Below are positions 2,420-30,587 of a stretch of DNA of 36,471 nt, piece after piece. The stretch spans positions 1 through 36,471 of the forward strand of contig JACMLN010000052.1 of assembly GCA_014379585.1 (NCBI GenBank). Direction: 5' to 3'. Below the pieces are notes generated by a model. It was not told where the DNA came from. It saw only the letters and a list, made by a program, of their open reading frames with translations, and ran no database searches. The position numbers were made by a program, and so were the translations under genes. Positions within the stretch are counted from its first letter, which is position 1, and every line of letters begins with the position of its first letter. This DNA is from Gloeobacterales cyanobacterium ES-bin-313 (lineage in GTDB: Bacteria > Cyanobacteriota > Cyanobacteriia > Gloeobacterales > Gloeobacteraceae).

Positions 2420-2427
2420 GGTAAGTG

Positions 2428-3818: not shown

Positions 3819-3840
3819 GGGCTCCTCAGGGTGCGCTGGA

Positions 3841-4932
3841 TTAAAGACTACGAAGACCGAGGCCGAGGGCGATTCCGACCCCTGCACGGCTTTCTTCAGG
3901 AACGCTATTTTCTGGAAGTGCCAGGATCGACAGTGGGTTGATCTGCGTGACAGGTAGGGTCAAGCGCTGACTCAAAAATTGGTCGAGCTGGCTAATATTC
4001 GCCCCACTGCCTGCAAGCAGAACTTGAGCCACGGGAGCGACATTGCCTTGAGAAAGATAAAAATCGAGAGAGCGCTGAATTTCTTCGGCAAGTTCGGTGA
4101 GCACCCGACGTAGTGCCGCTACTCCCCGTCCTGAGAACGACTGATCCTCTGTACCAGCGCCACTTACCGAGGGTGTGAGGCTCTGGAGCAAGCTTGTGGC
4201 TTGGTTCGGTGGCAAGTCCAAGGTGCGGCTCAGTACTTCTCTAAATTCCCAAGTACCAAGATTGACAGTGCGCGAGAACTGTGGGACGCCCTTAATCAAA
4301 ATACTGATTTCAGTTCCCTCAGCCTGAAGAATCACAAGCGCAATGGCTTCGTCGGGTGAGTACTGCAAAAGTTGGTTGCGTAGAGCGCGAATGAGCGCAA
4401 AGCTGGCAATATCCACCGTTCTGACATTTAGGTTTGCTCGTCGAATTGCCTCGGTGTAGCTATTCACAACACTATGTTGCGCGGCAACAAGCAGCACTTC
4501 TTGGCGCTTGACCCCATCAGGGTCGATGGTGGAGTCGAGGGGTTGAAAATCGACAAATGCTTCTTCCCGTGGGAAAGGCAAGTAAAGTTCTGCTTCCTGG
4601 TTTAAAACCACTTCGCGCAGTTCGTCCGCTTGCAAGTCAGCAGGTAGTTTAATCAGCCGAATCACCGCTTCGCGGCCCGGAATAGCGGTCGAAACAGGCA
4701 AACCTTTGAGGCGATGGGTGGTCACTAAGTCTTGAATCACCGAACCCACTGCTTGGGGATCTTCGACGCGACCATCGACAACCGAATTGGCTGGAGTAGG
4801 TGCGGAGACCAGATGCTTGAGGCGCAGGCGGCTGCCCCGTTTTTCGAGTTGTGCAATCGTTACCTGCTCGGAATTGATTTCAATCCCGATGCCGCCCTTG
4901 CTACCGAATAAGTTTGCGAATACGCTTGCCAC
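3841..4932 (-). CDS. pilM: Type IV pilus assembly ATPase-fold protein PilM
   Basis: Cytoplasmic actin-fold protein that binds the N-terminus of PilN and links the pilus motor to the envelope complex. The 363-residue length is normal. GIEINSEQVTIAQLEKRG near the N-terminus is the first phosphate-loop region. ELYLPFPREEAFVDFQPL and the later LAGSGANISQLDQFLSQRL are conserved PilM blocks, the latter forming the adenosine side of the fold. Start is GTG at 4932, with AGGGA about 8 bases upstream. It lies 43 bases downstream of the prepilin peptidase gene and begins the M-N-O-P-Q series. Confidence 0.93.
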   Translation of the reverse strand: MASVFANLFGSKGGIGIEINSEQVTIAQLEKRGSRLRLKHLVSAPTPANSVVDGRVEDPQAVGSVIQDLVTTHRLKGLPVSTAIPGREAVIRLIKLPADLQADELREVVLNQEAELYLPFPREEAFVDFQPLDSTIDPDGVKRQEVLLVAAQHSVVNSYTEAIRRANLNVRTVDIASFALIRALRNQLLQYSPDEAIALVILQAEGTEISILIKGVPQFSRTVNLGTWEFREVLSRTLDLPPNQATSLLQSLTPSVSGAGTEDQSFSGRGVAALRRVLTELAEEIQRSLDFYLSQGNVAPVAQVLLAGSGANISQLDQFLSQRLTLPVTQINPLSILALPENSVPEESRAGVGIALGLGLRSL

Positions 4933-13722: not shown

Positions 13723-13785
13723 ATTCAAGTGTGATATGAAATGATCTTGAATATAGGTTGATGTACTCTGGTGCTATTCTTTAAT
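13723..13785 (+). promoter_or_regulatory. Candidate promoter and inverted repeat ahead of the ten-gene locus
   Basis: TTGATG at 13758-13763 and TTTAAT at 13780-13785, spaced by 16 bases, resemble a sigma-70 promoter. Just upstream, ATTCAAG (13723-13729) and CTTGAAT (13746-13752) form a perfect 7-bp inverted repeat with a 16-base gap, a plausible regulator site. Transcription from here would begin near 13792, which supports a translation start at 13834 or later. Confidence 0.35.
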
Positions 13786-13833
13786 TTTGGTATTTTTCCA
13801 AGCCTTGTACCTAGTTCTTTAGTTCGATCCCTG

Positions 13834-15207
13834 ATGCCCAAGCTCATTGCCTTTCTAAGAACTATGTTTCTCTGTTCCATCTCATTCGTACTCTTCGTCG
13901 GATGTGCTTCTGAACCACCAGTACCCATTCCAGGGCTTGGTGAGTTGGTGCCTGTTGTTACCCAACCCTCAGACAAACTAGAAGTACATTTATTTGTCGA
14001 TGCGACAGAGTCTATGTCTGGATTCACTACATCGACTGCAGCAGCCACACCCTATCAATTACTCCTTAAAGCCCTAGAAGACGGCGTCAACAGCCTTCCT
14101 GACCCGACGAAGAAAGTGCTTAAATTTAAATTCGGCAAAGACATCGTTCCTTTCCCAGGCAGTCTGCATGTAACGGCGGGGAAAGAGAAAAGCTTTTACA
14201 ACGGGGCAGGCCAGATCACCCTCATTCAAAATGTCTTACAGCAAAAGTATACGCCAAGCAATCCAGAGAGTCTTTCTGTCGTTGTTACAGACTTGTTTCA
14301 ACAAGATCGCGACACCGGGTTGCTGATTGCTGCGCTCTCTAAAAATTACCTCTCCAAAGGTCTTTCAGTTGCCTTGATCGGAGTCAAGAGCGAGTTCAAT
14401 GGAAAAATCTTCGACATGAACAACAGCACTGCTGGAGTGCCCTACATCGGAACGCGCCCAGTCTACGCCATCGTGATCGGCAGCTACGGCAATGTCAGTC
14501 ACTATATAGAAGCGATTAAACTCACCAATACGTCCCTACAAAGCAGTGGCACCAAGTACACCATTTTTACGCCTCAGGTCTTTGCAAAACCGATCAGTTT
14601 TTTAGGTGATTGCGCAGTACGCGATCCAGCAAGCAAGGATGCTTGGAACCTCGACAAAGTCAGCGACAATTTGAAGCCAGATGGCCTCCTGCCGGGAACG
14701 AACATCTGCAAGTTTCTGATCGATCCTGTGGCCCAAGCTAAGTTTACTGCTCTTATCCAAGCACCTGTTCTGCTTTCTGAAGACGTTGCCAGTTACGATC
14801 TCCAACAGTCTGAAATCTTTGTCGAGGTACAACGCGCCATAGAGCCACCCACCCAAACAGAGCAAGAAAATCCTTCGCCCAAACCGCCCTCAAATCTTTC
14901 TGAACCCCTCAAGGACATTGAAATTTCCACAGATTTTAGTAAAGATACTAGCAATGCGCTTTTGCTCAAAATGACCTTGAATTTCAAGTCTCAGCAGCTT
15001 GCGCAAGGCTCCTACCTAGTTCAAGTATTTTTTAAGCCGAAGATTAGCAACTACCCAATGAAATGGGACGATTGGAGTACTGACAATGCCGCTGTCGAGA
15101 AATCGAAGACCCAGGAGTTAACGAGTTTTATTAAAAAGCTATACTCCGCTAGCATCGAGACCCAGAAGCCAGAAGCCAGAATGGCGTTTTACGTTACCAA
15201 ACCTTGA
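13834..15207 (+). CDS. Lipoprotein with vWA-like domain; first gene of the ten-gene locus
   Basis: About 457 residues. The N-terminus (MPKLIAFLRTMFLCSISFVL) runs into FVGC with Cys24, a lipoprotein-type signal, so the body should be outside the cytoplasm and lipid-anchored. KLEVHLFVDATESMSG carries D56-x-T58-x-S60, a MIDAS-like DxSxS variant at the end of a hydrophobic strand. SVVVTDLFQQDRD, about 100 residues later, fits the other metal-site loop of von Willebrand A folds. A Pro-rich stretch (IEPPTQTEQENPSPKPPSN) precedes a C-terminal beta domain. I chose ATG 13834 because it gives a compact lipoprotein signal and lies after the candidate promoter. GTG 13771 and ATG 13864 are alternatives. 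No family name recognised beyond the vWA-like fold. The next gene follows after 23 bases. Confidence 0.72.
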   Translation: MPKLIAFLRTMFLCSISFVLFVGCASEPPVPIPGLGELVPVVTQPSDKLEVHLFVDATESMSGFTTSTAAATPYQLLLKALEDGVNSLPDPTKKVLKFKFGKDIVPFPGSLHVTAGKEKSFYNGAGQITLIQNVLQQKYTPSNPESLSVVVTDLFQQDRDTGLLIAALSKNYLSKGLSVALIGVKSEFNGKIFDMNNSTAGVPYIGTRPVYAIVIGSYGNVSHYIEAIKLTNTSLQSSGTKYTIFTPQVFAKPISFLGDCAVRDPASKDAWNLDKVSDNLKPDGLLPGTNICKFLIDPVAQAKFTALIQAPVLLSEDVASYDLQQSEIFVEVQRAIEPPTQTEQENPSPKPPSNLSEPLKDIEISTDFSKDTSNALLLKMTLNFKSQQLAQGSYLVQVFFKPKISNYPMKWDDWSTDNAAVEKSKTQELTSFIKKLYSASIETQKPEARMAFYVTKP

Positions 15208-15230
15208 TTGAGAAAACTTCGGAGGATGCG

Positions 15231-15692
15231 ATGGACAAATTGAGGTGGATTGGAACTGTCATCGTGGGCGCTGTTACAGCTCTGCTGATGGCATTTTTTT
15301 GGCCTTTCCTTTGCTACCAAATGCGTACCTTTATCGGTATCAACGGCAGTGCGACTTGGTTGAAGCAATTCACGGCCATTGGCCTAGTTGGGGTCGGGAT
15401 CAGTCTGTTTTTATGCTTGGTCTGGTATGTGTTAGGCGAGTTCGTATTTAAAGAGTCTGCAACTGGCTTGTGGTGGGTATTTCTGCTGATCACCTTGATC
15501 GCTGCTATCGTTCCCGCTTTTTGGCCCGGTGCTTTTCCCGTCAGGGTGAGCAATCTTTGGGTCGTGTCGCTGTTTTATTTCATCAATAACACGGTCATCG
15601 GATACTGGTTATCTACCTTCTTTTTCTACCCGTCTACCCAGCTACTTGTTCCCCTAGGAGCAGATGGTTTCTACACAAAATCCAAGAGATAG
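15231..15692 (+). CDS. Four-helix integral membrane protein of the ten-gene locus
   Basis: About 153 residues with four predicted membrane helices: IGTVIVGAVTALLMAFFWPF, FTAIGLVGVGISLFLCLVWY, GLWWVFLLITLIAAIVPAFW and VVSLFYFINNTVIGYWLSTF. No enzyme motif is visible. Start ATG 15231 has a strong GGAGG 6 bases upstream; an earlier TTG that overlaps the previous stop lacks this. It lies 12 bases before the tubulin-like gene. The likely role is as the membrane base of the complex whose other parts are encoded around it. The sequence alone gives no specific function. Confidence 0.75.
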   Translation: MDKLRWIGTVIVGAVTALLMAFFWPFLCYQMRTFIGINGSATWLKQFTAIGLVGVGISLFLCLVWYVLGEFVFKESATGLWWVFLLITLIAAIVPAFWPGAFPVRVSNLWVVSLFYFINNTVIGYWLSTFFFYPSTQLLVPLGADGFYTKSKR

Positions 15693-15704
15693 GTAAGAGA
15701 CACT

Positions 15705-17198
15705 ATGAGCAATTATGTAATTGGCATCGGGGGAACAGGCGCAAAGTGTGTCGAGGCGTTTGTACATATGGTTGCTGCTGGTTTGGTAAACCCTTCTGAT
15801 CGGGCCAAAGATATTTCTGTCCTGTTGATCGATCCAGATGTCGCCAATGGCAGTTTGGAGCGGGCTCGCTCTACCTTGCAGAAATACCGGGAAGTGCGTA
15901 CAGTTCCCTCTGTCGGTAGGATCGCTTTTCTGCGGGATGGTTTAGAGCCAGTCGATCGGCAAAAATCCCAATGGGCCTGGAGTCCTTTTGCTGATGAAGC
16001 AAACCCTTCCTTTCAGAGGCGCTTCACCTACGCGGGAATGGGTGTGCTGGAAGCAGGACTATTAGATGTCCTCTACACGGATGCTGAAAAGAAAGCTTCT
16101 TTGCGCAAAGGTTTTTTGGGGCGGCCTTCCATTGGTGCAGCGGTGATGGCTGAAATTCTCGACCTCGACGATCCAGATCTAGAAGAACCGTGGAAAGGAC
16201 TGAGCAACCGTCTCAAAAATGACAAAGATCCAAAAGTATTTATTGTTGGCTCGATCTTTGGTGGTACAGGAGCCTCCGGGATGCCGACGGTGGCGCGGTT
16301 GCTTGCAGACTTCATGAGCACCAGTGAGATTCGAATCGGCTGTGCTTTGGTATTACCTTACTTTTCGTTTCCAGCCCCCGACGCCCAACAAGCCCAACAG
16401 GTTCAGGCGAGAGCAGAAGAATTTCTGCTGCGGAGTCAGGCTGCTCTGAGTTACTACCAGTCCAAACTTTCAGAAGATCGCGATATTTACGATGCTGTTT
16501 ATCTGTTGGGCACCGACGATTTGCCCCAGGTAGAGAATAATAGCCTTGGATCCAAAGAGCAGCGCAATCCCCCCCATTACCTTGAATTGTACGCGGCGAC
16601 AGCGGCTCTCCATTTCTTTGAGCAGCAACTGAATGATCCTGTGCGCACGCATATCATTCGAAGTCCAGGAGTATGTTTAAATTGGTCGCAATTACCTGGT
16701 GGAAAGGTAACAGAGTATTCTTTGGCCAATCTTGCGCGGTTTAGCTATGCCTACCTGGGCTATTTCTATAAGGAGTTGCTTAATCCTGCTGAACTGCAGC
16801 GCAAAAAAGCACCTTGGTTCGGACTTTTCTTCAAAAAGGAGCGCCTCTCCGAAATCGAGGTCTCCCTCAAAAAAGTACGGGATTACTGCGAGTTATTTCT
16901 CGTTTGGCTTAAAGACACCCAGTCTTTCTCAGGGAACTGCCAGGTAGATTTGTTCAGAACCGATACTTACAGGGTTGAGGCAGACAGCGAAGGGAACAAG
17001 CGCGTCAGCATTTTGAAAGATGAGTATATTCGTCTTTACGCTGTCGAGTCTTCCCAGAGCAGGCTTGTTCCCAATACGTTTCTCGATATCAAAGTTGCTC
17101 TTGATCGACTTACCCCTGAGCAAAGTGTTGGCGCTTCCGATGTCGGCTGTTTTATCCATGCACTGTACAAACTATGCAGTCCCAAAAAGGAGCTTTAG
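15705..17198 (+). CDS. Tubulin-like GTPase (Tubulin_2-type)
   Basis: A 497-residue cytoplasmic protein with the glycine loops of the tubulin/FtsZ superfamily. The N-terminal GIGGTGAKC (residues 7-15) is the first nucleotide loop. FGGTGASG (185-192) follows the hydrophobic strand KVFIVGSI and corresponds to the GGGTGTG signature loop. VLLIDPDVANGSLERA fits the second strand, and the segment NPPHYLELYAATAALHFFEQ is a helix typical of the bacterial tubulin-like (PF13809-type) proteins. It is clearly not FtsZ: it is longer, diverges from residue 200 on, and has no C-terminal FtsA/ZipA peptide. By superfamily it should bind GTP and may polymerise. The next gene, an actin/Hsp70-fold protein, starts 2 bases after its stop. 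Confidence 0.82.
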   Translation: MSNYVIGIGGTGAKCVEAFVHMVAAGLVNPSDRAKDISVLLIDPDVANGSLERARSTLQKYREVRTVPSVGRIAFLRDGLEPVDRQKSQWAWSPFADEANPSFQRRFTYAGMGVLEAGLLDVLYTDAEKKASLRKGFLGRPSIGAAVMAEILDLDDPDLEEPWKGLSNRLKNDKDPKVFIVGSIFGGTGASGMPTVARLLADFMSTSEIRIGCALVLPYFSFPAPDAQQAQQVQARAEEFLLRSQAALSYYQSKLSEDRDIYDAVYLLGTDDLPQVENNSLGSKEQRNPPHYLELYAATAALHFFEQQLNDPVRTHIIRSPGVCLNWSQLPGGKVTEYSLANLARFSYAYLGYFYKELLNPAELQRKKAPWFGLFFKKERLSEIEVSLKKVRDYCELFLVWLKDTQSFSGNCQVDLFRTDTYRVEADSEGNKRVSILKDEYIRLYAVESSQSRLVPNTFLDIKVALDRLTPEQSVGASDVGCFIHALYKLCSPKKEL

Positions 17199-17200
17199 CA

Positions 17201-20200
17201 ATGAATGGCGACCAAGGAAAAGCAGGTAGTAAACCCCTGCTGCCCAAGCTAAAAGCAGATGCTACGGTTGCTACCCCGTCAGAGGCTGCCTCTTGGGTCA
17301 GCGTAGACGGGGTGATTTTGGCAAATTTGGCTGAAAGTTTAGTGGTACCGGATCTGAGTGCAACCCAGCGGTCGATCGACTCGATCCCGGATATTTGGGC
17401 ACGGCCTTTGCTTTTCAAGCAGGCGCTGCACAACAATGAGCATCCTTTGCATCTAACAGTTTTAGGTGAATGGCGGGGTTTACTGGCCATTCTCGCTCTA
17501 CGAGAGTGGCGTAACTTGCGGCTCTACACCAAACTTTTGGATCTCAAAAATCCGCCAGATACTGGCTACGACTTTATTAGAGCTGCCAACTCCTTACTCC
17601 CCCGTCACCAAAGTATTTCGCCCGATACGACCTGGGACAAAGTCCATATCCTTTTTTACGGGGACGAACCCCAAGGCAGCACAAAGGGCAATCCAATTGG
17701 GATCACTTCACCTTTGACTTTGGTCTGTACAGCAGCGGATCTTGCCAGCCAGCCAGGGAATGAGAAGCAAAGCCGATTGGATGAGCGCGTCACTTGGTTT
17801 ATCAGCGGCATGCTTGAGGATCCTTCTCGGCACCTCGATCCTGAAGAAAAACATGCCTTAACGTTTTGGCTCAACCACGTCAAGAAGGGCTTGCAAAGTG
17901 GGGGTAGGGTGAACCGCGATGCCAGTGAACTGATCGGTCGCCTGAATGAATTTGTAGTTGCTTTGCGAGCTGATCGGGTGCCGGCGAGAGAACAACACAG
18001 TCTTAGTTCCCGCAGTCTTGCCCTGCAGACAGGCATCTATCGGATTTTAGATAACCCAGTTAAAGGGATAGAAACTCCCCTCCATCAGTCCATGGTGCGG
18101 GTGAAACCGAGCGCCAGCCTCAATCCACCCAAAGATTTGCTGATTCTTGACGAGAGCTTCAAGACCAAACTGGGCATCTGGCGCAGAAATAATCTCGCCG
18201 AAATACGCGTTTTTGGGACAGAAAATCTTGGCAGCATCAATTTTGCAGAACTAGGCGACAATCCAAACCGACTTGGGTCTCGCGCTGGTGCTCCCCAACT
18301 CAAAGATGGAACACGGGAGGCGGAATGGCGTTTCCCCAAAGCCCTTTTTACAGAACGCTTAATGCTCGTGCGGGCACAGGGAACTACTTTCCCAAATGTC
18401 CTTCCGGTGTCGGGGCAGCGAGATCTGATCTTCCGCAATGTCAGCGTCGTGCCGATCTTGCCGATTGATAGCAAGCTTTTGGACTACTACATCCCCTCTG
18501 ATCTTGCTGAACGGATCCACTTTCGTCAAGAAGGTGAGAACTTCATTGTCGAGTTGATGGTCACTCTTGGTTCGAGTTCAGAAGAATCCGTCGAAGAGTA
18601 TAAACTCACCATTGATAGGGTCTACACCCCTCAAGATGTCGAATTCCGCGAAAACTTGCCTGTCTTGGAAATCTGGCCAAACTTTCGGACACCGACCTGG
18701 AACTGCTATTACACCTACTACGATCTAGTGGGACTTGAACCAACAGATGTCTTCTACGCTCGTCCCTATACAGGCACCGAAGAAGTTGTTAAGCGTTCAA
18801 CCTTAGAACGCGAACTCCTGCTCCATGAAGTCACCCGCACCAGCAAACCGCCTGAGGCAATGATCTGCGAAGCTGTCCGCAAAGATAAGCGACGGTTCTC
18901 CGTTGGTTGTCTGCTGCTTACAGAGTTGCCCTTCAAAAATCAGATGCATCAGAGCATCTGGCACATCGGTATGGACTTTGGTACCTCTGCCAGCCAGGTC
19001 TACTACCGCCGAGACACAGGCAATATTCCAAAGCCACTCCAGTTTCAACAGCGCTTTTTCTCTGTGACATCACCTGGGGAAGAGAACCGCTTCGAGATGG
19101 TCAAGTTCTACTTGCCACCCTTCGAGCCAGTTTCCCCTTTTCCGACCCTCTTTCGGCAGGAACCGAAACTGCCGGGGAACCAGCAGGATCCTTACGATCA
19201 GCCATTCTTGCGCGGCAACATTCGCTACTCCAAAGAAGGTCAACTGCTGCGCGGGCTAGCCAATGAAAAAGTCAGTTCGCGCTTCAAATGGGCTGAGGAG
19301 CAGGAATTAACCGATGGATTTATCGAACAACTAGCCCTTCAATGTTTGGCAGAAGCTGCATCGGAAGGTGTAGCAGAAGTACGTTGGCATGTCTCCTATC
19401 CCACCGCCTTCGACTTCGTCTTGCTCCAAATCCTGCGCAACACCTGGGGCTGTGTCTTAACGATGACCCGCGATCTCGGTTTCCAAACCGACGACAAGCG
19501 TCCCAACTTTATGACCGAGAGTGTGGCAGCGGCTCTCTTTTTCTCCAGCAAAGACAAAGTTAACCTCACCCAAACCGTCTGCATCGATATCGGCGGTGGC
19601 TCTTCAGATATCTCGATCTGGAGCAAGACGGAGCTGATTCAGCAGTCCTCCATCAAGTTTGCTGGGGAGGAAATCTTTATGAATCTCCTCAAAGCCTACC
19701 CTCTGATTTTGGAGCGCTTCGATCCAGAGTGGGGCAAGCAGTTGGCCAAAGTCGTTGGCTCAGAATCATTTTACCCAGAAGCAGATTCTCTCCTCCGCGC
19801 TAACCGCGACAAACTGAAGCAGCGTCTCCCCATTGCCTTAGCGCAAGTCCGCGACCCGATGAGCGATCCTGTCTTCGGACTTATCCATCTCATCGCTTTG
19901 GGTGTCTCAGGGATCGTCTTCTACTCAGGACTCCTGATCAATCAACTCCACCGCCAGGGCGCACTTCCCTACGATGTGCTACCCGAACTGTGTGTCGGCG
20001 GCAATGGCGCACGTACTTTTGAGTGGCTCGGAATCGGAGAATTTTCTGAAGATACACCCCACAATCGCCTGTTTGCCGAACTATTGGTTGCCTCTTCGGA
20101 GCTAGAGCGTGTGCGAAACTACGCTGTTAGAGTCAGCTCCGAACCGAAAGCCGAAGTTGCCTACGGACTTGTCCTACAAGATGAGTTGCATCTAGAAGTC

Positions 20201-20569
20201 AAGAAAAACGATGAAGATTTCATTGTCATCGCTGGCGAAGATTTCAAGGATGAGAAGGGTGAGCCTAAAGGTTGGGATACCCTGATTACCGCTGGCCTGC
20301 TGAAATCAGGTTTATCCATTTCTAAGGAGTTAACTCAACTGCGCAAATTTGTAGAGGTCTACAACAACTATGCAAGTAAAAAGGGGAGCTGCGTTCGTGC
20401 TATCGACCTTGATGCCTACGCAAAAGACATCGAAATGACGGTGCAGCAAAAATTAGACAGCTATAAGCGAATGAACGAAAGCAATATCACTGTTGAACCA
20501 CTCTTCATCACTGCCCTCAAGCGCTTGATTGTTGCTGAGACACAGAAGTGGTCGGGCAAAAAGAGTTGA
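17201..20569 (+). CDS. Large protein with C-terminal actin/Hsp70-fold ATPase domain
   Basis: 1122 residues from ATG 17201, which has AGGAG 9 bases upstream; an earlier ATG at 17174 overlaps the tubulin-like gene. The N-terminal half (1-580) matches no domain I know. Its most conserved-looking block is LTVLGEWRGLLAILALREWR, then VHILFYGDEPQGSTKGNPIG and SPLTLVCTAADLASQPG. The C-terminal half carries all three actin/Hsp70 signatures: phosphate-1 GMDFGTSASQVYYRR (D592), phosphate-2 CIDIGGGSSDISIW (D796), and adenosine loop CVGGNGARTFEWLG (G933-G936). ESVAAALFF lies between them, as in Hsp70-like proteins. No signal peptide or membrane helix is visible, so it is cytoplasmic. It may be a filament-forming or client-remodelling ATPase working with the tubulin-like protein. 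A distant relation to SrfB-type proteins is possible but unproven. Confidence 0.85.
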   Translation: MNGDQGKAGSKPLLPKLKADATVATPSEAASWVSVDGVILANLAESLVVPDLSATQRSIDSIPDIWARPLLFKQALHNNEHPLHLTVLGEWRGLLAILALREWRNLRLYTKLLDLKNPPDTGYDFIRAANSLLPRHQSISPDTTWDKVHILFYGDEPQGSTKGNPIGITSPLTLVCTAADLASQPGNEKQSRLDERVTWFISGMLEDPSRHLDPEEKHALTFWLNHVKKGLQSGGRVNRDASELIGRLNEFVVALRADRVPAREQHSLSSRSLALQTGIYRILDNPVKGIETPLHQSMVRVKPSASLNPPKDLLILDESFKTKLGIWRRNNLAEIRVFGTENLGSINFAELGDNPNRLGSRAGAPQLKDGTREAEWRFPKALFTERLMLVRAQGTTFPNVLPVSGQRDLIFRNVSVVPILPIDSKLLDYYIPSDLAERIHFRQEGENFIVELMVTLGSSSEESVEEYKLTIDRVYTPQDVEFRENLPVLEIWPNFRTPTWNCYYTYYDLVGLEPTDVFYARPYTGTEEVVKRSTLERELLLHEVTRTSKPPEAMICEAVRKDKRRFSVGCLLLTELPFKNQMHQSIWHIGMDFGTSASQVYYRRDTGNIPKPLQFQQRFFSVTSPGEENRFEMVKFYLPPFEPVSPFPTLFRQEPKLPGNQQDPYDQPFLRGNIRYSKEGQLLRGLANEKVSSRFKWAEEQELTDGFIEQLALQCLAEAASEGVAEVRWHVSYPTAFDFVLLQILRNTWGCVLTMTRDLGFQTDDKRPNFMTESVAAALFFSSKDKVNLTQTVCIDIGGGSSDISIWSKTELIQQSSIKFAGEEIFMNLLKAYPLILERFDPEWGKQLAKVVGSESFYPEADSLLRANRDKLKQRLPIALAQVRDPMSDPVFGLIHLIALGVSGIVFYSGLLINQLHRQGALPYDVLPELCVGGNGARTFEWLGIGEFSEDTPHNRLFAELLVASSELERVRNYAVRVSSEPKAEVAYGLVLQDELHLEVKKNDEDFIVIAGEDFKDEKGEPKGWDTLITAGLLKSGLSISKELTQLRKFVEVYNNYASKKGSCVRAIDLDAYAKDIEMTVQQKLDSYKRMNESNITVEPLFITALKRLIVAETQKWSGKKS

Positions 20570-20630
20570 TAGCTCCTGTGAGCGTAGTAGAAATAAGGAT
20601 GTGGTAGAGCCGAGTGTTTAAGGAGGAACG

Positions 20631-21656
20631 ATGAGTCAGCATTGCCCAAGATATAAGCTTCCCTACAATGTACTCAGTAGTGCGTTGGCGGTTTTCCTTG
20701 TCCTCTCCGATACGTGTGGAATGCGAGTGAATGCACAACAACCAGAACTTGCAGGTTCGGCTCCCAGTGAATATGAGCAGAGCGCTCCAGGGACAATAAC
20801 GAAGCCTGATCTAAAGGCAAAAAATCGGGCTACTTCAGCAGCAGCCACCCCGAGTGCACCCAGCGACACTGCTGTAAACGGCTCAGGAAAAACACCTCAA
20901 GAAGCAAAAACTGCTGTAGACAAAACTCCAGAACTCAATTGGGTGGCCATGGGAGTAAGCGCTGGCTTGAATACCCTACCATCACTTATTTTTTTCATTC
21001 TTTTATGGCTCAAGCTTGACAAGCAAGCTGAGAATATCAATGCCAAGATAAAGAATTTAGATAATAAGGTTTCTACACTTCAAGGATCACAGCAAAGCAA
21101 AACAAGTAGCCAACCATCAGCGACTCGCCTTCCTTTTGATCCAGACCTTAAGTCTAAACTCGAAAGATTAACTGAGTCCATTGAAGAGTTGAAGCAAGAT
21201 ATCAAACCTCAAGCAGTTACAGTCACTACAGCTATTGATAAACAGGTCGAACCTGACATCCCCATTCGCTCAGATCTACACCCTTTTGTTCAACGTTATA
21301 ACGCCATTTTAAGTAAATATGAGGATAACGCTGAAAGAAAATCCACTTTAGAAGGAGAGTATCGTGGTCAAGTTACATTGGCATCTGTCAGTAATTCTGA
21401 AGATCTCGATAGTGAAGTTCCTCCAGAGTTAAAAGAAGCAAGCGAGCGAGCCACTTTCTATCTGGTTGAAGACGAAACTAGCTATCTCGCATTGCCAATA
21501 CCAAGTATGGCTAGCGTGGGCACTTCCTATGCGAAAGCTATGTACAATATCGAGGGTGATGGGCTTTCTGTTGCAAGTATTCAGAAACCTGCGCAATTCA
21601 AGCAACAGAGCAATGTTTGGAGACTTGTTAGCAAAGGCAAAATGACGGTGGGATAG
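20631..21656 (+). CDS. Membrane-anchored coiled-coil protein with the locus-specific C-terminal domain
   Basis: A 341-residue protein with a very strong ribosome site (AAGGAGG) before ATG. Residues 1-34 look like a signal peptide (SSALAVFLVLSDTCG, ending VNA). Residues 35-100 are low-complexity Ala/Pro/Thr-rich sequence. A membrane helix lies at about 104-129 (GVSAGLNTLPSLIFFILLWL), then a coiled coil (KLDKQAENINAKIKNLDNKV) and a linker. The last 127 residues (215-341) contain RYNAILSKYEDNAERKS, RATFYLVEDETSYLALPIPS, KAMYNIEGDG and WRLVSKG. This block is closely similar to the C-terminus of the next protein. If the leader is cleaved, the C-terminal domain lies in the cytoplasm, matching its partner. 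No known family recognised. The gene is AT-richer than the ATPase gene before it. Confidence 0.8.
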   Translation: MSQHCPRYKLPYNVLSSALAVFLVLSDTCGMRVNAQQPELAGSAPSEYEQSAPGTITKPDLKAKNRATSAAATPSAPSDTAVNGSGKTPQEAKTAVDKTPELNWVAMGVSAGLNTLPSLIFFILLWLKLDKQAENINAKIKNLDNKVSTLQGSQQSKTSSQPSATRLPFDPDLKSKLERLTESIEELKQDIKPQAVTVTTAIDKQVEPDIPIRSDLHPFVQRYNAILSKYEDNAERKSTLEGEYRGQVTLASVSNSEDLDSEVPPELKEASERATFYLVEDETSYLALPIPSMASVGTSYAKAMYNIEGDGLSVASIQKPAQFKQQSNVWRLVSKGKMTVG

Positions 21657-21672
21657 CAGAAGGCATTTCACG

Positions 21673-23526: not shown

Positions 23527-23592
23527 ATAGGACATCTAAAGAACTAGAAGATGATTGGTAGGGCAGTTCGTCTGCAATCTTAAGGAGAGGCG

Positions 23593-25872
23593 ATGGGTGT
23601 TACGGGTGTAGTCCAGCAAGCAGGTGTTCTCTGGTATGCCTCCGAAAAAGGGGTGGGGGGCATTGACTTGGAAAATAGAGGTGTGCTCGCCGCTACGCCG
23701 CTCGATGCGCGTTGCTTCTTGGCGGATTCTAGGACGGGTTTGCTGCTGTGTGGCACTGGCAACGGCATTTTTAGTTACCAAGGAAATCGCTGGCAGGCGC
23801 TCAAAATCGATGGCACGGGACCAGGGAGTGCTGTGCGTGCTCTGGTTGTAGATAGCCAAAAGATGATTTGGTGTGCGTCAAACCTGGGACTGGGGAAAAT
23901 GGTTGGTTCCTTCCAGACAGGGTTTGGGTGGCAGTCCACCTACGACACAACCGATGGTTTGCCTAGCCGTCGTGTCGATTGCCTCTGCGTCGATAATCAG
24001 TCTATTCTTTGGTGCGGAACTCCATCGGGATTGGCCAGGTATCAGCCGAATACAGATACTTTCACCGTCAATCCAGCGATTGAAGCTGGAGTGATTGCCC
24101 TCGCAGCGGATCGGCAAAATCAGCTTTTTGTGGCCACTGCAGAGGGCTTAAGCAAGTGGGATGGCAAACGGTGGTCAGAACTTTCTGGTTGGCGGCAACA
24201 TATTGCGGCCTCAGCTGTGCCTCAGTGTTTGTTGGCAGACGATAGTGGCTACCTCTGGTGTGGAACATCCGCTGGCCTTGTCGTGCGCGATGAAGGTATT
24301 TGGCAAGGGATAGATCTAGGGGAGCCAGTCTCTGTGTATTCATTGACCTTGGATGCGCAAGGCAGTCTTTGGTGCGGAACGGAGTCAGGACTATTCAAAG
24401 TAGAAAACTGGAAAGGGATCCCGCTCAAAGAGTTTCTAGAAAGATCCGTTCCGGCTTCAGCCGATGGGATACCTGCACAAACTCCAGAAGCAGAACGACC
24501 AACGACTATCGTTATCCCACCGTCGCCAACTCTGATTGAACCTATTGCATCATTGCAGCCAACAATTCTCAATGCGAATGAGGTGGCCTCGCAGCCTACG
24601 GTACTCAATCTTCCTGAATCTACTTCACTGCCAACAAGTCTGGATACCACCAACCCTATTTTACAACCGACGATTCTTACTACCACTGAGCCTTCTTTAC
24701 TGCCAACGATCCCAACAGCTACTGCTACTGCTCCCGACCGATCATCTGAATTAACAACATCGCCAAATAGCTATATTCGTCTATATGCTTCACCGACCCA
24801 ATCCACAATTCCAATTGGTGGCAAAGAAATTTTTCGCATTCAAGTAGAACGCCAAAATACCGACTCAAATATTTCTTTTGCTGACCTCTTAGGAAGCCAA
24901 GGGATCACAGCTACAGTGATTCAGAAGGATGCCAGCGCCGATTGGGCTAACTTACTGGTCACAGTCACAGAAGAAGCCGTTCCTGGAAATTACACCCTCA
25001 GGGTTCAGGCCGAGGCACCAGGAATAACAATTTATAGTTGCTCTGTGGAGATTGCCGTTGTACCAGCAGTCACTGGGTTGACAACCCCTAATGCATTAGC
25101 GCCTACGAAATTGACACCGAAGCGGGTTAACGAAGAAACAAACCTTGTACCCCTCTTTACTGTTTTGCTTCTCTTTTTATTAGGGGGTGGGCTGATCTGG
25201 GTGTTGGGTCGTTCTGCAGGAGAAAATACTACATCCACCACTCCAACCCCTGAAACACCTTCACCGATTGCTAAATCTCAACCCACGCCCGTACCTCAGC
25301 CTGAACAACCTGAGCCGCAGCCTGTACAAAGGGATACACAAACTAACACCCAAACGGAACCCCCCCCCGAACCTCAGCCCAAGCCTGTTGTGAACAGCAA
25401 TGCTTTCAGCGAGACCGAAGCGGCAAGTCTAATCAATAATTGGCAGCAGATCAAGAAAGAGATCTATTCAGATCCGCAAAACACGGACGGTGAGTCGAAG
25501 TTGGGCAGCATCCTGACTGGGGTGATGCTCAGGGGCAATAGCGGCAATGGTGGGCGCTTGAATTCCTGGCAGCAACTGCGGAGCGAAAGGCAGTTCTGGC
25601 GATACACCCAGGGTTCTATAGTTTTAGTGCCTGGTACATTTCGGCGCGTGGACGACCACACAGCCTTCGCCGTGATCGCGATTACTGAGTCTGGCGAAAA
25701 ATTTGATTCTGCTGGAAACATACTGAAGGATGCTGGCTCCCCCTACTACAACAGCACGTATCAAGTGAAGTATCGCTTTGCTTATGATGACCAGACCAAG
25801 GAATGGCGGCTCGCTGAATGTTGGGGAACCACCAAAACTTTGAGATCCTGTGACCTGGATCGCGAGTCATGA
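23593..25872 (+). CDS. Propeller-Ig-TM protein with C-terminal ARC6-like IMS domain
   Basis: 759 residues, ATG with AAGGAGAGG upstream. The N-terminal seven-bladed propeller (about 1-280) has cores such as MIWCASNLGLGKM, ILWCGTPSGLARY, YLWCGTSAGLVV and SLWCGTESGLFKV. A Pro/Thr-rich spacer repeats (Q/L)PT(I/V/S)L motifs (about 300-385). An Ig-like domain follows (about 393-490; YIRLYASPTQSTIPIGGKE, VTEEAVPGNYTLRVQAEAPG), then one membrane helix (about 518-539; LFTVLLLFLLGGGLIWVLG). A Pro/Gln-rich linker leads to a domain at about 604-755 (AASLINNWQQIKKEI, KLGSILTGVML, STYQVKYRFAYD, EWRLAECW). This fits the IMS domain found at the C-terminus of ARC6/Ftn2. With no leader, the propeller would be cytoplasmic and the IMS domain periplasmic. 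The stop overlaps the next start (ATGA). Confidence 0.85.
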   Translation: MGVTGVVQQAGVLWYASEKGVGGIDLENRGVLAATPLDARCFLADSRTGLLLCGTGNGIFSYQGNRWQALKIDGTGPGSAVRALVVDSQKMIWCASNLGLGKMVGSFQTGFGWQSTYDTTDGLPSRRVDCLCVDNQSILWCGTPSGLARYQPNTDTFTVNPAIEAGVIALAADRQNQLFVATAEGLSKWDGKRWSELSGWRQHIAASAVPQCLLADDSGYLWCGTSAGLVVRDEGIWQGIDLGEPVSVYSLTLDAQGSLWCGTESGLFKVENWKGIPLKEFLERSVPASADGIPAQTPEAERPTTIVIPPSPTLIEPIASLQPTILNANEVASQPTVLNLPESTSLPTSLDTTNPILQPTILTTTEPSLLPTIPTATATAPDRSSELTTSPNSYIRLYASPTQSTIPIGGKEIFRIQVERQNTDSNISFADLLGSQGITATVIQKDASADWANLLVTVTEEAVPGNYTLRVQAEAPGITIYSCSVEIAVVPAVTGLTTPNALAPTKLTPKRVNEETNLVPLFTVLLLFLLGGGLIWVLGRSAGENTTSTTPTPETPSPIAKSQPTPVPQPEQPEPQPVQRDTQTNTQTEPPPEPQPKPVVNSNAFSETEAASLINNWQQIKKEIYSDPQNTDGESKLGSILTGVMLRGNSGNGGRLNSWQQLRSERQFWRYTQGSIVLVPGTFRRVDDHTAFAVIAITESGEKFDSAGNILKDAGSPYYNSTYQVKYRFAYDDQTKEWRLAECWGTTKTLRSCDLDRES
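25360..25368 (+). repeat. Run of nine cytosines in a coding linker
   Basis: An uninterrupted C9 tract encodes prolines (about residues 589-592) between the membrane helix and the IMS domain of the propeller-IMS protein. Such tracts are prone to slippage; a one-base change would remove the IMS domain while leaving the propeller and membrane anchor. Confidence 0.85.
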
Positions 25873-26681
25873 AACAAACCGAAAAGTGGAAATGGTTCTA
25901 CTTGCTTTTGGGTGTCTTTATTGTTGGCAATCTTGGTGCTATGGCTTTTGTCAAATTTGTGATGACACTTCGCGACACGACCGCCCAAACAGAAACATCA
26001 ATCATGCCTTCTGTACCACAAGTTTCCACTGTCCCGAATTCCGTTCCACAGGTCGCTGCTGAACCAACTTCTGCCCCAAAAAGCGCTGTCTCATCGGTTC
26101 CCACGAATACATCATTGGTTTCTGTCTCACCGAATCTTAGTGTAGAAAAGTACGGTCATCTTCCTTACCAAGAAGCCTCCCAAGCTGATGTTGAACTCGT
26201 TGGTAGTTACGGCCTGAGTCAAAAAGACGAGCGCTATGAATTCTTGCACAAAGAAGCCAGTCATGCCTGGTTGCACATGCAATTTGCTGCCCGCGATGAA
26301 GGGGTATGGTTGATCATTATTTCGGGTTTTCGGACGGAGGTTCGCCAGACAAAAGTATTTCTAGATCAGCTCAAGAAAAAGAAGAATGAAGCTGCTGCCG
26401 CTCGCTACGTCGCCCCTCCTGGCTTTAGCGAGCATCATACTGGATACACCCTCGACCTTGGTGATGGTAGTGCGCCAAAGACGGATCTTAAAACAGAATT
26501 TGAGCGAACAAAAGCTTTTCGCTGGTTGACGAAACACGCCCAAAAATACGGATTTGAAATGTCTTTTGGCCCTAACCAAAAGGAGACAGGCGTTGCCTAC
26601 GAACCGTGGCATTGGCGCTATATTGGGACATCCCATGCCCTAGCAATATTTGATCGCGCCAGAAAAAAGAGTCTGCTATGA
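25869..26681 (+). CDS. Membrane-anchored VanY-type D-alanyl-D-alanine carboxypeptidase
   Basis: A 270-residue member of peptidase family M15B. An N-terminal anchor helix (about 5-35; FYLLLGVFIVGNLGAMAFVK) is followed by a Pro/Ser/Val-rich spacer and the catalytic domain (about 110-262). IISGFRTEVRQTKVF is the conserved SxYRS-like region. SEHHTGYTLDLGD supplies zinc ligands H189 and D196. EPWHWRY supplies the catalytic glutamate (E245) and third ligand (H248). All key residues are present, so it should trim the terminal D-Ala from peptidoglycan peptides in the periplasm. It overlaps both neighbours by 4 bases, so it is produced with the two propeller-membrane proteins. Nothing here suggests vancomycin resistance; no VanS/VanR or ligase genes are nearby. 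Confidence 0.93.
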   Translation: MKQTEKWKWFYLLLGVFIVGNLGAMAFVKFVMTLRDTTAQTETSIMPSVPQVSTVPNSVPQVAAEPTSAPKSAVSSVPTNTSLVSVSPNLSVEKYGHLPYQEASQADVELVGSYGLSQKDERYEFLHKEASHAWLHMQFAARDEGVWLIIISGFRTEVRQTKVFLDQLKKKKNEAAAARYVAPPGFSEHHTGYTLDLGDGSAPKTDLKTEFERTKAFRWLTKHAQKYGFEMSFGPNQKETGVAYEPWHWRYIGTSHALAIFDRARKKSLL

Positions 26682-28513
26682 GTACTAATTTGATCGCGGC
26701 GTCCAAAGAATCAGTTTGGTATGTAATCGACGCAAGCCTTTATTGCTTTGATTTCAATCGTCGCAGTGTTGAGGTGGATACAAGCTTCTCAGATCTTGGC
26801 GGTCTCACCATTCGCTGTCTTGTGAGTGTGGATGGCTATCAAAAACCTTGGTGCGGCACAACCAACGGCATCTATTTCTTGAAAGGCGAACAGTGGACTA
26901 AGCTTTCTGCAATCGGGGATTTTAGTCCAGGTACCACCTTCAGTTGTCTCGCTTTTGATGGTAAGTGTGTTCTAGCTGCAGCAAACCGTGGTTTGGCTTT
27001 GCTCAGTATTGGCGAGTATTTTTCTTGGGAGATTCTTTATAATACGACCTACGGATTGCCCAATAATCGAGTGAATTGTTTGGTTATTGACCAAGAACAG
27101 CACCTTTTGTGTGGAACATCACAAGGTCTAGCTACTAAAGATCATGAGCGGTTTAGCAACTTTGTCGCGGATGCACTAACAACTGCGAATATCCTCGATC
27201 TGGCGATCAGTCCAACCGGGCAAGTCTGGTTTGTCGAAGAGACTTCTCTGCGCAAACGCAAGAAGGATGGCACCTGGGAAACAGACACAGGCTGGTCACA
27301 TGGATTGCCTGAAGCTATGTTGCAGTGTCTCCATATTGATGCGGAAGGCATTATTTACGTGGGTACGAACCAAGGAGTAGTTGCCTGTAAAAATGGCATC
27401 TGGAAGTGTATTGATGGAACCGTGAGTGAAAATATTCGTTGTCTCTACAGTGATGGGCAAGGAACCGTCTGGTGTTTAACTACTAAAGCATTACTCTGCC
27501 TCGAAAACCTCAAAGCACTTAATTTGAATGAGATACTAGATTTTGGCTTGCTTCTCAAGGAGCGAGAGGTAAGAAGGCAGTCTGAAATGCCCATTATTTC
27601 TCCAGACACAGCGCTCGATGTTGACGGTAGAGCACCAACCATTTTTTTCAAAGATCGCGACGATACTGTTTTGCTAGCCGAGCAAGATCTACAAATCAAT
27701 GCGCCACAGCCTAGCGAAACTCCTCGCTTAAAATCTCCCCAAGCAGAAAAGCTGACCGCATCTGTGATACTCACCATCGAGCATGCTAAGGCAAAAGCAA
27801 CAAATAGAAGTCCAGCTATTTTCCGTGTTGCTATAGCGCGCACGAACTTTCCTAGCGATGTGCAATGGACGCTGGAAGGCTTGCCAGAGCGTGCTGCCTA
27901 TGGCTGCTCCACGAACTACAATAAGCTCACAATTTCAGTGGATGCTTCTCAAGTTAACATCAGCAAATTGCCCAAGCAAATGATTCCTCTTCAACTGATT
28001 GGGAAAGCGCCTGGTGTCACGATTGCGCCTATAGAACTCGAACTGCGCATCGAGAAAAGCTTGCCCTACTGGGTGTTGCCAACGCTTGGCTTTGTCAGTG
28101 TGTATGCTGTCATTATCATCGCCACAGCTTCAGCACCTGTCAAATTGCTAGAACCAGCTTGGACTGCAGATGACAGCATGCAGCACGCTGCCGAAGGAGG
28201 CATTAATCTACGCGTTATGGTGCCTGAGGAGGCAAAGCTAGGAGAAGGCAAATTAGAAATTTACCGTGGAGATGCTTCTTCACAAGCAGCCTCTTTTGTC
28301 GATGCTATTTTTGACTCCGAGCATGCCGGTTTATTTGTATATAAAAAAAGGTTGCCTGAAGGCAAATACCGTCTTTTAGTAACGCTTCCAGGCTATCGAC
28401 CCTTAGAAAAAGTGATTGTTAAAGAATCCGCCATGGTCACCAAGGCAGATTCTGATACAGGCATTGGTGCGCCTCCCCTCACTCTCGAACGCAAGTTCCT
28501 GAAACTCTTCTGA
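26678..28513 (+). CDS. Propeller-Ig-TM protein with PEGA-like C-terminus
   Basis: 611 residues, no leader, third propeller paralogue of the locus. Seven blades (about 1-275) are readable, with cores such as KPWCGTTNGIYFL, HLLCGTSQGLATK, IIYVGTNQGVVAC and TVWCLTTKALLCL. The link YNTTYGLPNNRVNCLVID matches YDTTDGLPSRRVDCLCVD in the IMS paralogue. An Ig-like domain (about 365-460) precedes one membrane helix (about 464-487; LGFVSVYAVIIIATASA). The C-terminal module (about 505-600; KLEIYRGDAS, LPEGKYRLLVTLPGYRPLEK) resembles a PEGA domain, which is associated with surface or wall attachment. The predicted layout is propeller inside, PEGA-like domain outside. The start overlaps the VanY stop by 4 bases. 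Confidence 0.83.
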   Translation: MSTNLIAASKESVWYVIDASLYCFDFNRRSVEVDTSFSDLGGLTIRCLVSVDGYQKPWCGTTNGIYFLKGEQWTKLSAIGDFSPGTTFSCLAFDGKCVLAAANRGLALLSIGEYFSWEILYNTTYGLPNNRVNCLVIDQEQHLLCGTSQGLATKDHERFSNFVADALTTANILDLAISPTGQVWFVEETSLRKRKKDGTWETDTGWSHGLPEAMLQCLHIDAEGIIYVGTNQGVVACKNGIWKCIDGTVSENIRCLYSDGQGTVWCLTTKALLCLENLKALNLNEILDFGLLLKEREVRRQSEMPIISPDTALDVDGRAPTIFFKDRDDTVLLAEQDLQINAPQPSETPRLKSPQAEKLTASVILTIEHAKAKATNRSPAIFRVAIARTNFPSDVQWTLEGLPERAAYGCSTNYNKLTISVDASQVNISKLPKQMIPLQLIGKAPGVTIAPIELELRIEKSLPYWVLPTLGFVSVYAVIIIATASAPVKLLEPAWTADDSMQHAAEGGINLRVMVPEEAKLGEGKLEIYRGDASSQAASFVDAIFDSEHAGLFVYKKRLPEGKYRLLVTLPGYRPLEKVIVKESAMVTKADSDTGIGAPPLTLERKFLKLF

Positions 28514-28541
28514 CCACAAAGCTATTCATGAGGTATTGATC

Positions 28542-30587
28542 ATGTTCTTGTCCAGACAACTTTCTATTGCTCTCGCCCTTTCTTTGCTTGTCACTCTACC
28601 CGTTACTGCAGCCAGTGTTTCGATCAAAGCCAAAGTGACGGGTAACCAAAACAACATTGCAAAAAAAATATCTATCTTAAATCTTGATAAAGGCAGCAAA
28701 GATGGCGTGAAAACGGGAGCAAAAGGTTCTGCAAGTTACCTCGGATTTACAGATGCCAAAGGCGCGAATCAAGCCTTTAAAGCACCGATGATCCTGCCAT
28801 TTGCAATTTCAAAGCCTGGCACCGAGGCTTCCGATGGCATTGCCCACTTTCCGGGGGGGTTGCCCCCGATCATCAGCAGTGGTACCCCAGCAACGATCGT
28901 CAGTTATGTACCGGACAAACCGAGAAAAATTGATATCAATCAACCGATTCCAGGATCTGCTAAGACGAAGAATCCACCTAGCCAAAAAGGCGGAAATGCT
29001 ACTGCCCAACCGCCCAAAAAAGTGGCGAAAAAGCCACCGAAAAAGACGCAACCGCCTGCTCAACTGATCCCCAAACCACCCATTCAAACCGTCGAACCTC
29101 TAGATTTTTGTGCTTCCCAGTACGGTGGAACCACTACCAATCGCCAGTTTTGCTTACGCGTTGACAAGTCGGATATTATCTCCCAAGCTGTCCTCTCGGG
29201 GGAGTTGCCGGGTGAAATCGACCCGCAGGAAGGACAAGGGATTTCGAAGCAATCTGATTGGGTCGATGATCGTTTAAGTGCAGTCGCTCAACGTTATGGA
29301 AACAACCCAAACGATCCTGTTGCCCAGTTAGCTCTAGGCCAAGAGTATTTGCGTTTCAACCATTACGAAAAAGCTTCCCAGTTCTTGGCAAACATTCAAG
29401 ATCCAGGAACCGATGACGAGTTTAGCGATCTGCTTACCCACAGTCGTATGTACGCGAACTACGCAGTTGGTAACTACGAGCAAGTTGTCCAAGATGCAGC
29501 CAATATCAAGAACAAAACCTACGCTCAATCAATGTACAACATCCAGGCCGCAGCCTATGCTGCTAGTGGCAATACAACTGCATCAGAACAGATTTTATCA
29601 GGTCTGATGAGCAGCAGCGAAGTGCTCAACAATCGCGCCATCAATACCCACACGCAAGATAAAGATCATCCCGAGGCCGCCAGAGCTCTTTTTGATCAAG
29701 CCCTCACCATCAATCCCAACAATCTCAGTGTCGTCAACAACCTAGCTATTCTCGATATCGAACAAAATCAGTTTGGCAAAGCCTACGGGCACTTTGCAGC
29801 TATTTACGATCAAGTTGCACCGATCAATAACTCAGATCCAGTGACGTTAAGCCTTAAACGCTCGACCCTTTGGTACGTCAATAACTATCAGATCAATGAA
29901 GACTATGTAAGGCAACAGAAGATACCATTGGATGTTCTTCAAACTGCAACAGGTGTTCAAGCTGGAGCAATGATACTTAAAACGATTCTTGGTGGCAAAG
30001 TTACTTCTGGGGATATTACTGGCTTATTGTTCGGCTTGGTTGGTTCTGCTATACAACAACAAAAAGTGAATGACGCGATTACGAAAGTACGCAACAATTT
30101 TCTTGACAATCTGACGATGCTACCGACTGTATCAGGGCCAAACCAGGTGGATCTATCAAAACGCATTTCTGTGACTGCTAAGAGCCAGCCAACGACCTCT
30201 AGGCGAATTTCTGATCCCCCAACTCAACCAATCACCCTCTCGGATCAACAGCCTCCAAAACAACCCTCGGCGATTTCGACTGCGCCAACCCAGCCCGACA
30301 CGAATGGGCGTACTGATGTTGCCCCTCTGGTCAATATTGCTGGTTTCAACACCAATACTGATGACCTGAAGCGGGTCATTGGTGACTTGCCGTTACTCGT
30401 TAATTATGCGCAGTATCCTGACTATGGAAAAATGCAAAAGTATATTAAGAATATTCCGCCGAAAGTGCGCACCCAGGCTCGCCGAACCATCGCTGATGCC
30501 CTCAGTGGTAAACCTGTGCAACTCAATAACGACTTAAGGCGTATTCTTTTCGCTTTCATGCGCTTCAAGACTTACGGGAAATTTTGA
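28542..30587 (+). CDS. Exported TPR-repeat protein, last gene of the ten-gene locus
   Basis: About 681 residues from ATG 28542, which has GAGG 8 bases upstream; a TTG two codons earlier is less likely. The signal peptide is MFLSRQLSIALALSLLVTLP (cleavage near TAA-SVS). The N-terminal beta region contains NLDKGSKDGVKTGAKGSASY, a loop pattern seen in periplasmic barrel-type domains. A Pro/Lys-rich linker follows (about 126-187), with a cysteine pair in DFCASQYGG and RQFCLRV. TPR-like helical repeats occupy about 257-430 (VAQLALGQEYLRFNHYEKAS, LFDQALTINPNNLSVVNNLA). The C-terminus is disordered, then helical. A G7 run (28853-28859) opposite CCCCC makes a strong small hairpin in the message. It probably scaffolds the periplasmic parts. 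The 3' end overlaps the convergent next gene by 23 bases. Confidence 0.82.
   Translation: MFLSRQLSIALALSLLVTLPVTAASVSIKAKVTGNQNNIAKKISILNLDKGSKDGVKTGAKGSASYLGFTDAKGANQAFKAPMILPFAISKPGTEASDGIAHFPGGLPPIISSGTPATIVSYVPDKPRKIDINQPIPGSAKTKNPPSQKGGNATAQPPKKVAKKPPKKTQPPAQLIPKPPIQTVEPLDFCASQYGGTTTNRQFCLRVDKSDIISQAVLSGELPGEIDPQEGQGISKQSDWVDDRLSAVAQRYGNNPNDPVAQLALGQEYLRFNHYEKASQFLANIQDPGTDDEFSDLLTHSRMYANYAVGNYEQVVQDAANIKNKTYAQSMYNIQAAAYAASGNTTASEQILSGLMSSSEVLNNRAINTHTQDKDHPEAARALFDQALTINPNNLSVVNNLAILDIEQNQFGKAYGHFAAIYDQVAPINNSDPVTLSLKRSTLWYVNNYQINEDYVRQQKIPLDVLQTATGVQAGAMILKTILGGKVTSGDITGLLFGLVGSAIQQQKVNDAITKVRNNFLDNLTMLPTVSGPNQVDLSKRISVTAKSQPTTSRRISDPPTQPITLSDQQPPKQPSAISTAPTQPDTNGRTDVAPLVNIAGFNTNTDDLKRVIGDLPLLVNYAQYPDYGKMQKYIKNIPPKVRTQARRTIADALSGKPVQLNNDLRRILFAFMRFKTYGKF

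Follow-up and report, generated by a model that had tools for sequence, protein, structure and literature searches.

To our knowledge, tubulin-fold and actin-fold nucleoside triphosphatases (NTPases) act almost always in separate systems. The locus described here, on a 36,471-nucleotide contig of the Gloeobacterales cyanobacterium ES-bin-313 (JACMLN010000052.1, assembly GCA_014379585.1; the whole of this stretch is called the window below), encodes a protein of each kind side by side within a run of ten genes, g1 to g10 (Table 1). The closest described relative is the vWA–FtsZl1–OmpA system predicted in the main text of Makarova and Koonin (2010; PMC2875224), in which a divergent tubulin-fold protein is found, as here, with membrane proteins and a von Willebrand factor A (vWA)-type protein (here vWA-like by motif), has OmpA/MotB-like partners and is distributed patchily across phyla, Gloeobacter violaceus being among the sequences. 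FtsZl1 is presented there as a Tubulin_2 protein of about 1000 amino acids with a coiled coil and a helical C-terminal domain, and membrane remodelling is the preferred role. The GAP1-N2 conflict systems, as set out in the main text of Kaur et al. (2020; PMC7159879), likewise bring tubulin-family, HSP70-fold and membrane vWA proteins together in accessory loci with variable partners. Finally, the anti-phage system Zorya includes ZorAB, a 5:2 rotary motor of the group that also powers type 9 secretion and gliding (PMC11890865). An earlier note on this DNA, made from the sequence alone, stated that no described system has such a composition; the predictions of 2010 (vWA, tubulin-like and OmpA-type proteins) and 2020 (tubulin, HSP70 and vWA proteins) make that too strong, and the present system is therefore not of a wholly unknown class. 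We file it as a tubulin–actin variant of the known but uncharacterised FtsZl1/vWA kind, with the actin-like partner, the constant pairing and the fusion as its new parts. None of these three is found in the main texts of PMC2875224 or PMC7159879, whose supplements may hold an unlabelled mention.

The pairing of the tubulin-like protein g3 with the actin-like protein g4 is the central observation. By BLAST, g3 is present in 13 of 145 related genomes and strong matches to g4 occur in exactly those 13, the remaining g4 matches being at the level of MreB-like proteins (E 2e-4 or weaker). The same order recurs in the 13 genomes: lipoprotein, small membrane protein, tubulin-like protein, actin-like protein and exported coiled-coil protein. 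When a g4 profile was run against 84,980 species genomes, 78 loci were returned, 59 of which had enough upstream sequence to be testable. A g3-like gene lies next to g4 on the same strand, or is fused to it, in 56 of these 59, and homologues of g1 and g2 lie near g4 in 45 and 53 of them respectively. Median gaps are 3 bases between g2 and g3 and 18 bases between g3 and g4. Two of the three exceptions have another architecture, with the actin-like domain placed after a caspase domain (see below). Locus L131 carries g4 without g3. Across 57 loci the g3 and g4 distance matrices correlate with r = 0.97 (the maximum of 2000 permutations was 0.33), which shows co-inheritance as a unit, with a contribution from the shared species tree. 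The homologues are thus not scattered over other genomes without a conserved neighbourhood, and the proposal of the earlier note that the tubulin-like and actin-like proteins form a unit with envelope proteins is supported. Its wider claim, that all ten genes make up one machine, is not: g1 to g5 alone are widely conserved, whilst in related loci the VanY protein has no homologue and the tetratricopeptide repeat (TPR) protein a single partial one.

In two metagenome-assembled genomes of gut bacteria, the two proteins are encoded as a single open reading frame (ORF), of 1660 amino acids in Syntrophomonadaceae (locus L147) and 1704 amino acids in Spirochaetaceae (L149). The tubulin-like profile covers residues 4-413 and the actin-like one runs from about residue 520 to the end, with no overlap. 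Synteny is also maintained around the fusions: the preceding genes encode a lipoprotein homologue and a small multi-transmembrane (TM) protein, the following one a protein of coiled-coil type. The two fusions share 49% identity despite belonging to different phyla, and they come from separate assemblies, making a single assembly error an unlikely cause. No further fusion was found among 297 relatives of the Spirochaetaceae protein. As a natural domain fusion, this arrangement is evidence that the tubulin-like and actin-like proteins act together. Two further loci (L148 and L150) apparently hold the same type of fusion, but their contigs stop short of the tubulin part.

The family is patchily distributed. 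Members of the g4 family occur in 27 of 386 genomes of the cyanobacterial phylum (~7%) and in 13 of 295 Bacteroidia genomes (~4%), and in all ten Bacteroidia loci inspected the tubulin-like gene is the neighbour of the actin-like one. The unit is also found in Ignavibacteria and Alphaproteobacteria. A sister genome in the genus Gloeobacter (G003) lacks the module, some single genomes carry several copies, and mobilizable plasmids bear complete modules in Gloeothece verrucosa PCC 7822 (a plasmid of 47.5 kb) and Picosynechococcus PCC 7003, all of which speaks for an accessory system. Modules, or the actin-like gene, were seen too in single-cell genomes labelled Alphaproteobacteria/Pelagibacteraceae (L118, L144, L139), of which 0.9-1.4 Mb were recovered; the module is unusual for such streamlined cells. 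A sequence filed as viral (IMGVR_UViG_3300002450_000431; L246/L196) has g2, g3 and g4 (the last of 1504 amino acids) together with an HSP70-like gene, and is probably bacterial or mobile-element DNA.

What kinds of protein are g3 and g4? g3 matches the Pfam family Tubulin_2 (PF13809) at 3.4e-10 and retains the GTP-binding loops GGTGAK and FGGTGASG. Across 59 family sequences, G9, G10, G12 and the F185-G192 loop are conserved, corresponding to the T1 and T4 glycine loops of the tubulin fold. An AlphaFold2 model built from the 59-sequence alignment (predicted local distance difference test score, pLDDT, 85; predicted template modelling score, pTM, 0.91) matches 22aj_B in the PDB (Z 15.6, 218 residues aligned, root mean square deviation, rmsd, 3.5), with CetZ and FtsZ at Z about 15.4, and the best 50 Foldseek matches are all tubulins or their relatives; the search concerns mostly the GTPase domain, residues 1-417. 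On this modelling, g3 is predicted to be a member of the Tubulin/FtsZ superfamily. Two tandem, further diverged tubulin-like proteins of 512 and 549 amino acids, unrelated to g3 by profile, are encoded at 10352-14031 of L073 (G113:C42).

In Pfam, g4 yields only a weak MreB/FtsA signal (MreB_Mbl at 3.6e-5, below the cut-off). Its ATPase domain occupies residues 594-1004, behind an N-terminal part of ~590 residues, and carries the motifs DFGTS, D-I-G-G-G-[ST]-S-D and GGNG. D601, G603, D805, G808, G942 and G943, which belong to the phosphate-1, phosphate-2 and adenosine motifs, are invariant in 51 sequences. Residues 594-1004 of the AlphaFold2 model (pLDDT 85) superpose on MreB (4czi) with Z 13.5, 286 residues aligned and rmsd 3.8 (Foldseek E 4e-9), and match FtsA, Hsp70 and actin as well. 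The PDB search concerns mostly residues 593-1017. From the modelled fold, g4 is predicted to be a member of the actin/MreB/Hsp70 ATPase superfamily. SrfB and SrfABC were considered as relatives and ruled out, there being no SrfB match in Pfam. Four loci (L093, L099, L104 and L121) contain a second actin-like gene downstream, shorter or differently ended (730-994 amino acids).

The gene identities offered by the earlier note were borne out by profile for the tubulin-like protein, the three propellers, the VanY and TPR proteins and, below the cut-off, the MreB-like protein. This was not so for the vWA assignment of g1, which has the support of a motif alone, namely a conserved D-x-[TS]-x-S and a TD motif. 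No Pfam vWA hit was obtained in the window protein, one of 31 homologues matched at E 0.22, an hhalign comparison with the vWA protein YfbK gave no match, and a PDB profile search for vWA likewise failed. The ATG at 13834 agrees with the start given previously and yields a lipoprotein signal with its cysteine. Exported coiled-coil genes of the g5 type are often present in several copies in other loci, and g5 shares a small C-terminal domain with g6.

Several features separate the locus from its described relatives. With 497 amino acids and a PF13809 score of 27-40 bits, g3 differs from canonical cyanobacterial FtsZl1 (1088-1200 amino acids, 320-380 bits), to which it is weakly similar (E about 1e-5) and which the window's genome encodes separately (G000:C17); this separate paralogue rules out g3 being an ordinary FtsZl1. 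As counterpart of the vWA partner of FtsZl1, g1 offers its motif resembling a metal ion-dependent adhesion site (MIDAS), without profile support. The OmpA-type partner has its counterpart in ZorB/OmpA-like proteins in a subset of the present family, the window's genome having none. The GAP1-N2 systems are defined, in the main text of PMC7159879, by a TRAFAC (DO-)GTPase/GAP1 and fibronectin type III (FNIII) domains, none of which is found by profile among the ten window proteins, and the tubulin theme in them is said there not to overlap with the HSP70 one, whereas here the tubulin and actin folds are paired. The folds of g3 and g4 are common to FtsZ/tubulin/CetZ and MreB/FtsA/Hsp70 respectively, but identity to the MreB and FtsZ families is 8-18% and the present system is set apart by large extra domains and by the constant pairing of the two proteins and their equally constant association with envelope proteins.

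The comparison with Zorya rests on a ZorAB-like pair found beside many Bacteroidia copies and some cyanobacterial ones. Six of the ten Bacteroidia loci continue with a ZorA-like gene and five of these also with a ZorB-like gene, the sixth (L239) ending at the edge of the retrieved stretch; the pair is co-directional in L232, L234-L236 and L238. In two gut contigs (L247 and L248) a single directon holds the genes for the lipoprotein, the membrane protein, the tubulin-like and actin-like proteins and both members of the ZorAB-like pair, and the cyanobacterial cases are L077/G002, G069 and L124. PADLOC identifies the small partner as ZorB1 (8e-15) and the large one as ZorA2 (1e-7), Pfam gives weak matches to MotB_plug, OmpA and MotA_ExbB, and the MotB-position aspartate is invariant in eight ZorB-like sequences. 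Unlike in Zorya, however, scans revealed no match to ZorC, ZorD or ZorE, and Zorya itself has no tubulin or actin partners. Most cyanobacterial loci, that of the window included, are without the motor pair. Canonical FtsZl1 genes are also directly followed by a ZorAB-like pair, in three of seven cyanobacterial loci (L250:8904-15392, L251:1395-7373 and L254:9526-15296), a likely reason for the OmpA association described in 2010. None of these seven loci has an actin-like partner or the tubulin–actin fusion.

Membrane lipoprotein and TM partners, paired NTPases and, in many lineages, a motor that grips peptidoglycan together suggest an envelope-spanning switch. From these observations we infer that g3, binding GTP, and the ATPase g4 would form one cytoplasmic complex, present as a single fused chain in some bacteria. 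g2 would tie this complex to the inner membrane, and the g5 coiled-coil protein or proteins, with the vWA-like lipoprotein g1, would tie it to the periplasm and outer membrane. In Bacteroidia and some cyanobacteria, the ZorAB/MotAB-like proton channel may supply or sense force. A change in the envelope, passed inward via g1/g5 or the ZorAB-like motor, would switch the nucleotide state of g3–g4, whose assembly or disassembly would deploy variable partners encoded downstream, in the window the propellers and the wall carboxypeptidase. We put at somewhat under an even chance the structural claim contained in this scheme, that of an obligate mixed tubulin-fold/actin-fold complex, sometimes fused, spanning the envelope, partly ZorAB-driven and separate from the systems that serve division, shape and partition. 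If true, an inseparable and sometimes fused module found across phyla would provide a direct link between tubulin and actin in one prokaryotic complex, the mechanism would unite both great cytoskeletal NTPase folds with a proton motor, and the long-uncharacterised FtsZl1/vWA systems would gain a testable partner and a motor. Cyanobacteria that can be cultured and whose genomes and plasmids are complete, namely Picosynechococcus PCC 7003 and Gloeothece PCC 7822, carry copies.

As to purpose, our reading of g1 to g5, held with confidence that is evenly balanced, is that of a conserved envelope-anchored two-NTPase switch that most likely serves as an accessory surveillance or conflict response to attack on the envelope, such as by phage. 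A conflict role is favoured because of the patchy and plasmid-borne spread, the ZorAB-like partners and the architectures in which the g4 domain is found with caspase and EACC1-like proteins. In Microcystis viridis and Planktothrix rubescens (L126:8282-12145 and L127:9212-12511), a caspase domain precedes the actin-like domain in one fused protein that has no tubulin partner, and the caspase–actin gene of L126 adjoins genes for an EACC1-like protein and a g1 homologue. EACC1 systems are among those described in the main text of PMC7159879, and the caspase–actin proteins look like a recruited conflict-system effector.

A number of results weigh against this reading, whose weakest step is the conflict purpose. 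PADLOC found no convincing defence-family match among the ten window proteins and no enrichment of defence genes around the loci (83 families matched for 130 flanking proteins and 109 for 129 control proteins from random regions). In the g3 tree the deep branches follow taxonomy, with Gloeobacterales (support 100) apart from other cyanobacteria (99), so that the system is old as well as patchy; an ancient system that was lost many times accounts for this no worse than a mobile defence system does. At E 1e-6 the window's genome yields no ZorB-like gene, and the motor is thus not universal to the system. Lastly, beyond its predicted H7 helix g3 shows no evident T7-type NxDxxD motif (as read from sequence and model), which makes FtsZ-like polymerisation doubtful, and classical FtsZ filaments should not be assumed.

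The main rival is a machine for remodelling the envelope or membrane, organising vesicles, surface structures or wall growth, in which the tubulin–actin pair would be a local scaffold directing wall enzymes and surface proteins. We regard this as possible, at roughly one chance in three. Membrane and exported partners are encoded at both ends of the locus, the wall carboxypeptidase and propellers of the window are co-directional with the core, a remodelling role was proposed for FtsZl1 operons in the main text of Makarova and Koonin (PMC2875224), and both the missing defence-island signal and the taxonomic order of the g3 tree would suit it. Against it stand the low frequency in Cyanobacteria and Bacteroidia, the plasmid-borne copies, the absence from G003 and the lack of conservation of VanY. 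Canonical FtsZ and MreB, moreover, are encoded elsewhere in the window's genome, as judged by profile, making it unlikely that g3 and g4 replace them; given the patchy, plasmid-borne distribution too, the alternative constriction or shape role raised by the earlier note is less likely. One cyanobacterium that carries the module (G142, a single contig of 3,757,845 bases, 99% complete) has no match to the FtsZ_C or Tubulin/FtsZ GTPase profiles, while G337 of the same genus has FtsZ; G142 is possibly an FtsZ-less cyanobacterium.

An improbable alternative is a transport, secretion or motility apparatus which, by analogy with the GldLM, TonB and type 9 secretion energisers, might be energised by the ZorAB-like motor and the two NTPases. 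It would make sense of the ZorAB/MotAB-like pair, kin of the motors behind type 9 secretion and gliding (PMC11890865), and of the exported, multi-copy coiled-coil proteins, but the motor is missing from most cyanobacterial loci, Pfam recognised no outer-membrane channel or secretion substrate among the core genes, and no secretion-system profile scored above the cut-off. Partition of plasmids or chromosomes by TubZ/ParM-like cytomotive filaments moving DNA is very improbable: both folds do include partition NTPases and some copies are on plasmids, but the core has no DNA-binding adaptor, it is constantly accompanied by the membrane lipoprotein and the TM proteins, most copies are chromosomal, and the Gloeothece plasmid encodes a ParA/ParB of its own. 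That the ten are unrelated, co-directional neighbours by chance is less credible still and, whilst general conservation is lacking for g8 and g10, is already refuted for g1 to g5 by a core order kept across phyla, the fusion and the co-evolution of g3 and g4.

Returning to the locus itself, ORF calls confirm ten tightly packed genes on one strand at the place originally given. Overlaps of 4 bases number three (15204/15207, 25869/25872 and 26678/26681) and not two, as first thought, and taking the first ATG gives g3 and g4 an overlap of 25 bases. A promoter and terminator scan was uninformative, promoter-like sites being fewer than in shuffles.

Table 1 Genes of the tubulin–actin locus in the window
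Gene	Position	Strand	Product	Conservation
g1	13771..15207	+	Exported lipoprotein with vWA-like MIDAS motif; likely start 13834	Conserved core
g2	15204..15692	+	162-amino-acid membrane protein, 3-4 TM	Conserved core
g3	15705..17198	+	Predicted divergent tubulin-fold protein, Tubulin_2 (PF13809), 497 amino acids	Conserved core
g4	17174..20569	+	Predicted giant actin/MreB/Hsp70-fold ATPase	Conserved core
g5	20631..21656	+	Exported/membrane-anchored coiled-coil protein	Conserved core
g6	21673..23526	+	Reg_prop beta-propeller, coiled coil and g5-type C-terminal domain	Lineage-specific tail
g7	23593..25872	+	Reg_prop propeller, TM, C-terminal ARC6-like IMS domain	Lineage-specific tail
g8	25869..26681	+	Membrane-anchored VanY-type D,D/L,D-carboxypeptidase	No homologue in related loci
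g9	26678..28513	+	Reg_prop propeller with TM segment	Lineage-specific tail
g10	28536..30587	+	Exported TPR protein	One partial homologue, same place in G008/L076

Downstream of g5, the Reg_prop family of Pfam is found in g6, g7 and g9, VanY in g8 (5e-43) and TPR in g10. The IMS domain of g7 (PF13355, 1.9e-8) had been missed previously. Propeller genes recur only in Gloeobacterales loci, again downstream of g5, and both IMS and VanY were ruled out as recurrent partners, with one weak IMS match and no VanY in related loci. Elsewhere in the window, the minus strand at 3-4932 has the look of a type IV pilus cluster, unlinked to the locus and running from pilQ back to pilM, judging by gene order and a PilQ-like sequence, and an ORF at the contig end (35190-36425, minus strand) resembles a TnpB-type transposon protein.

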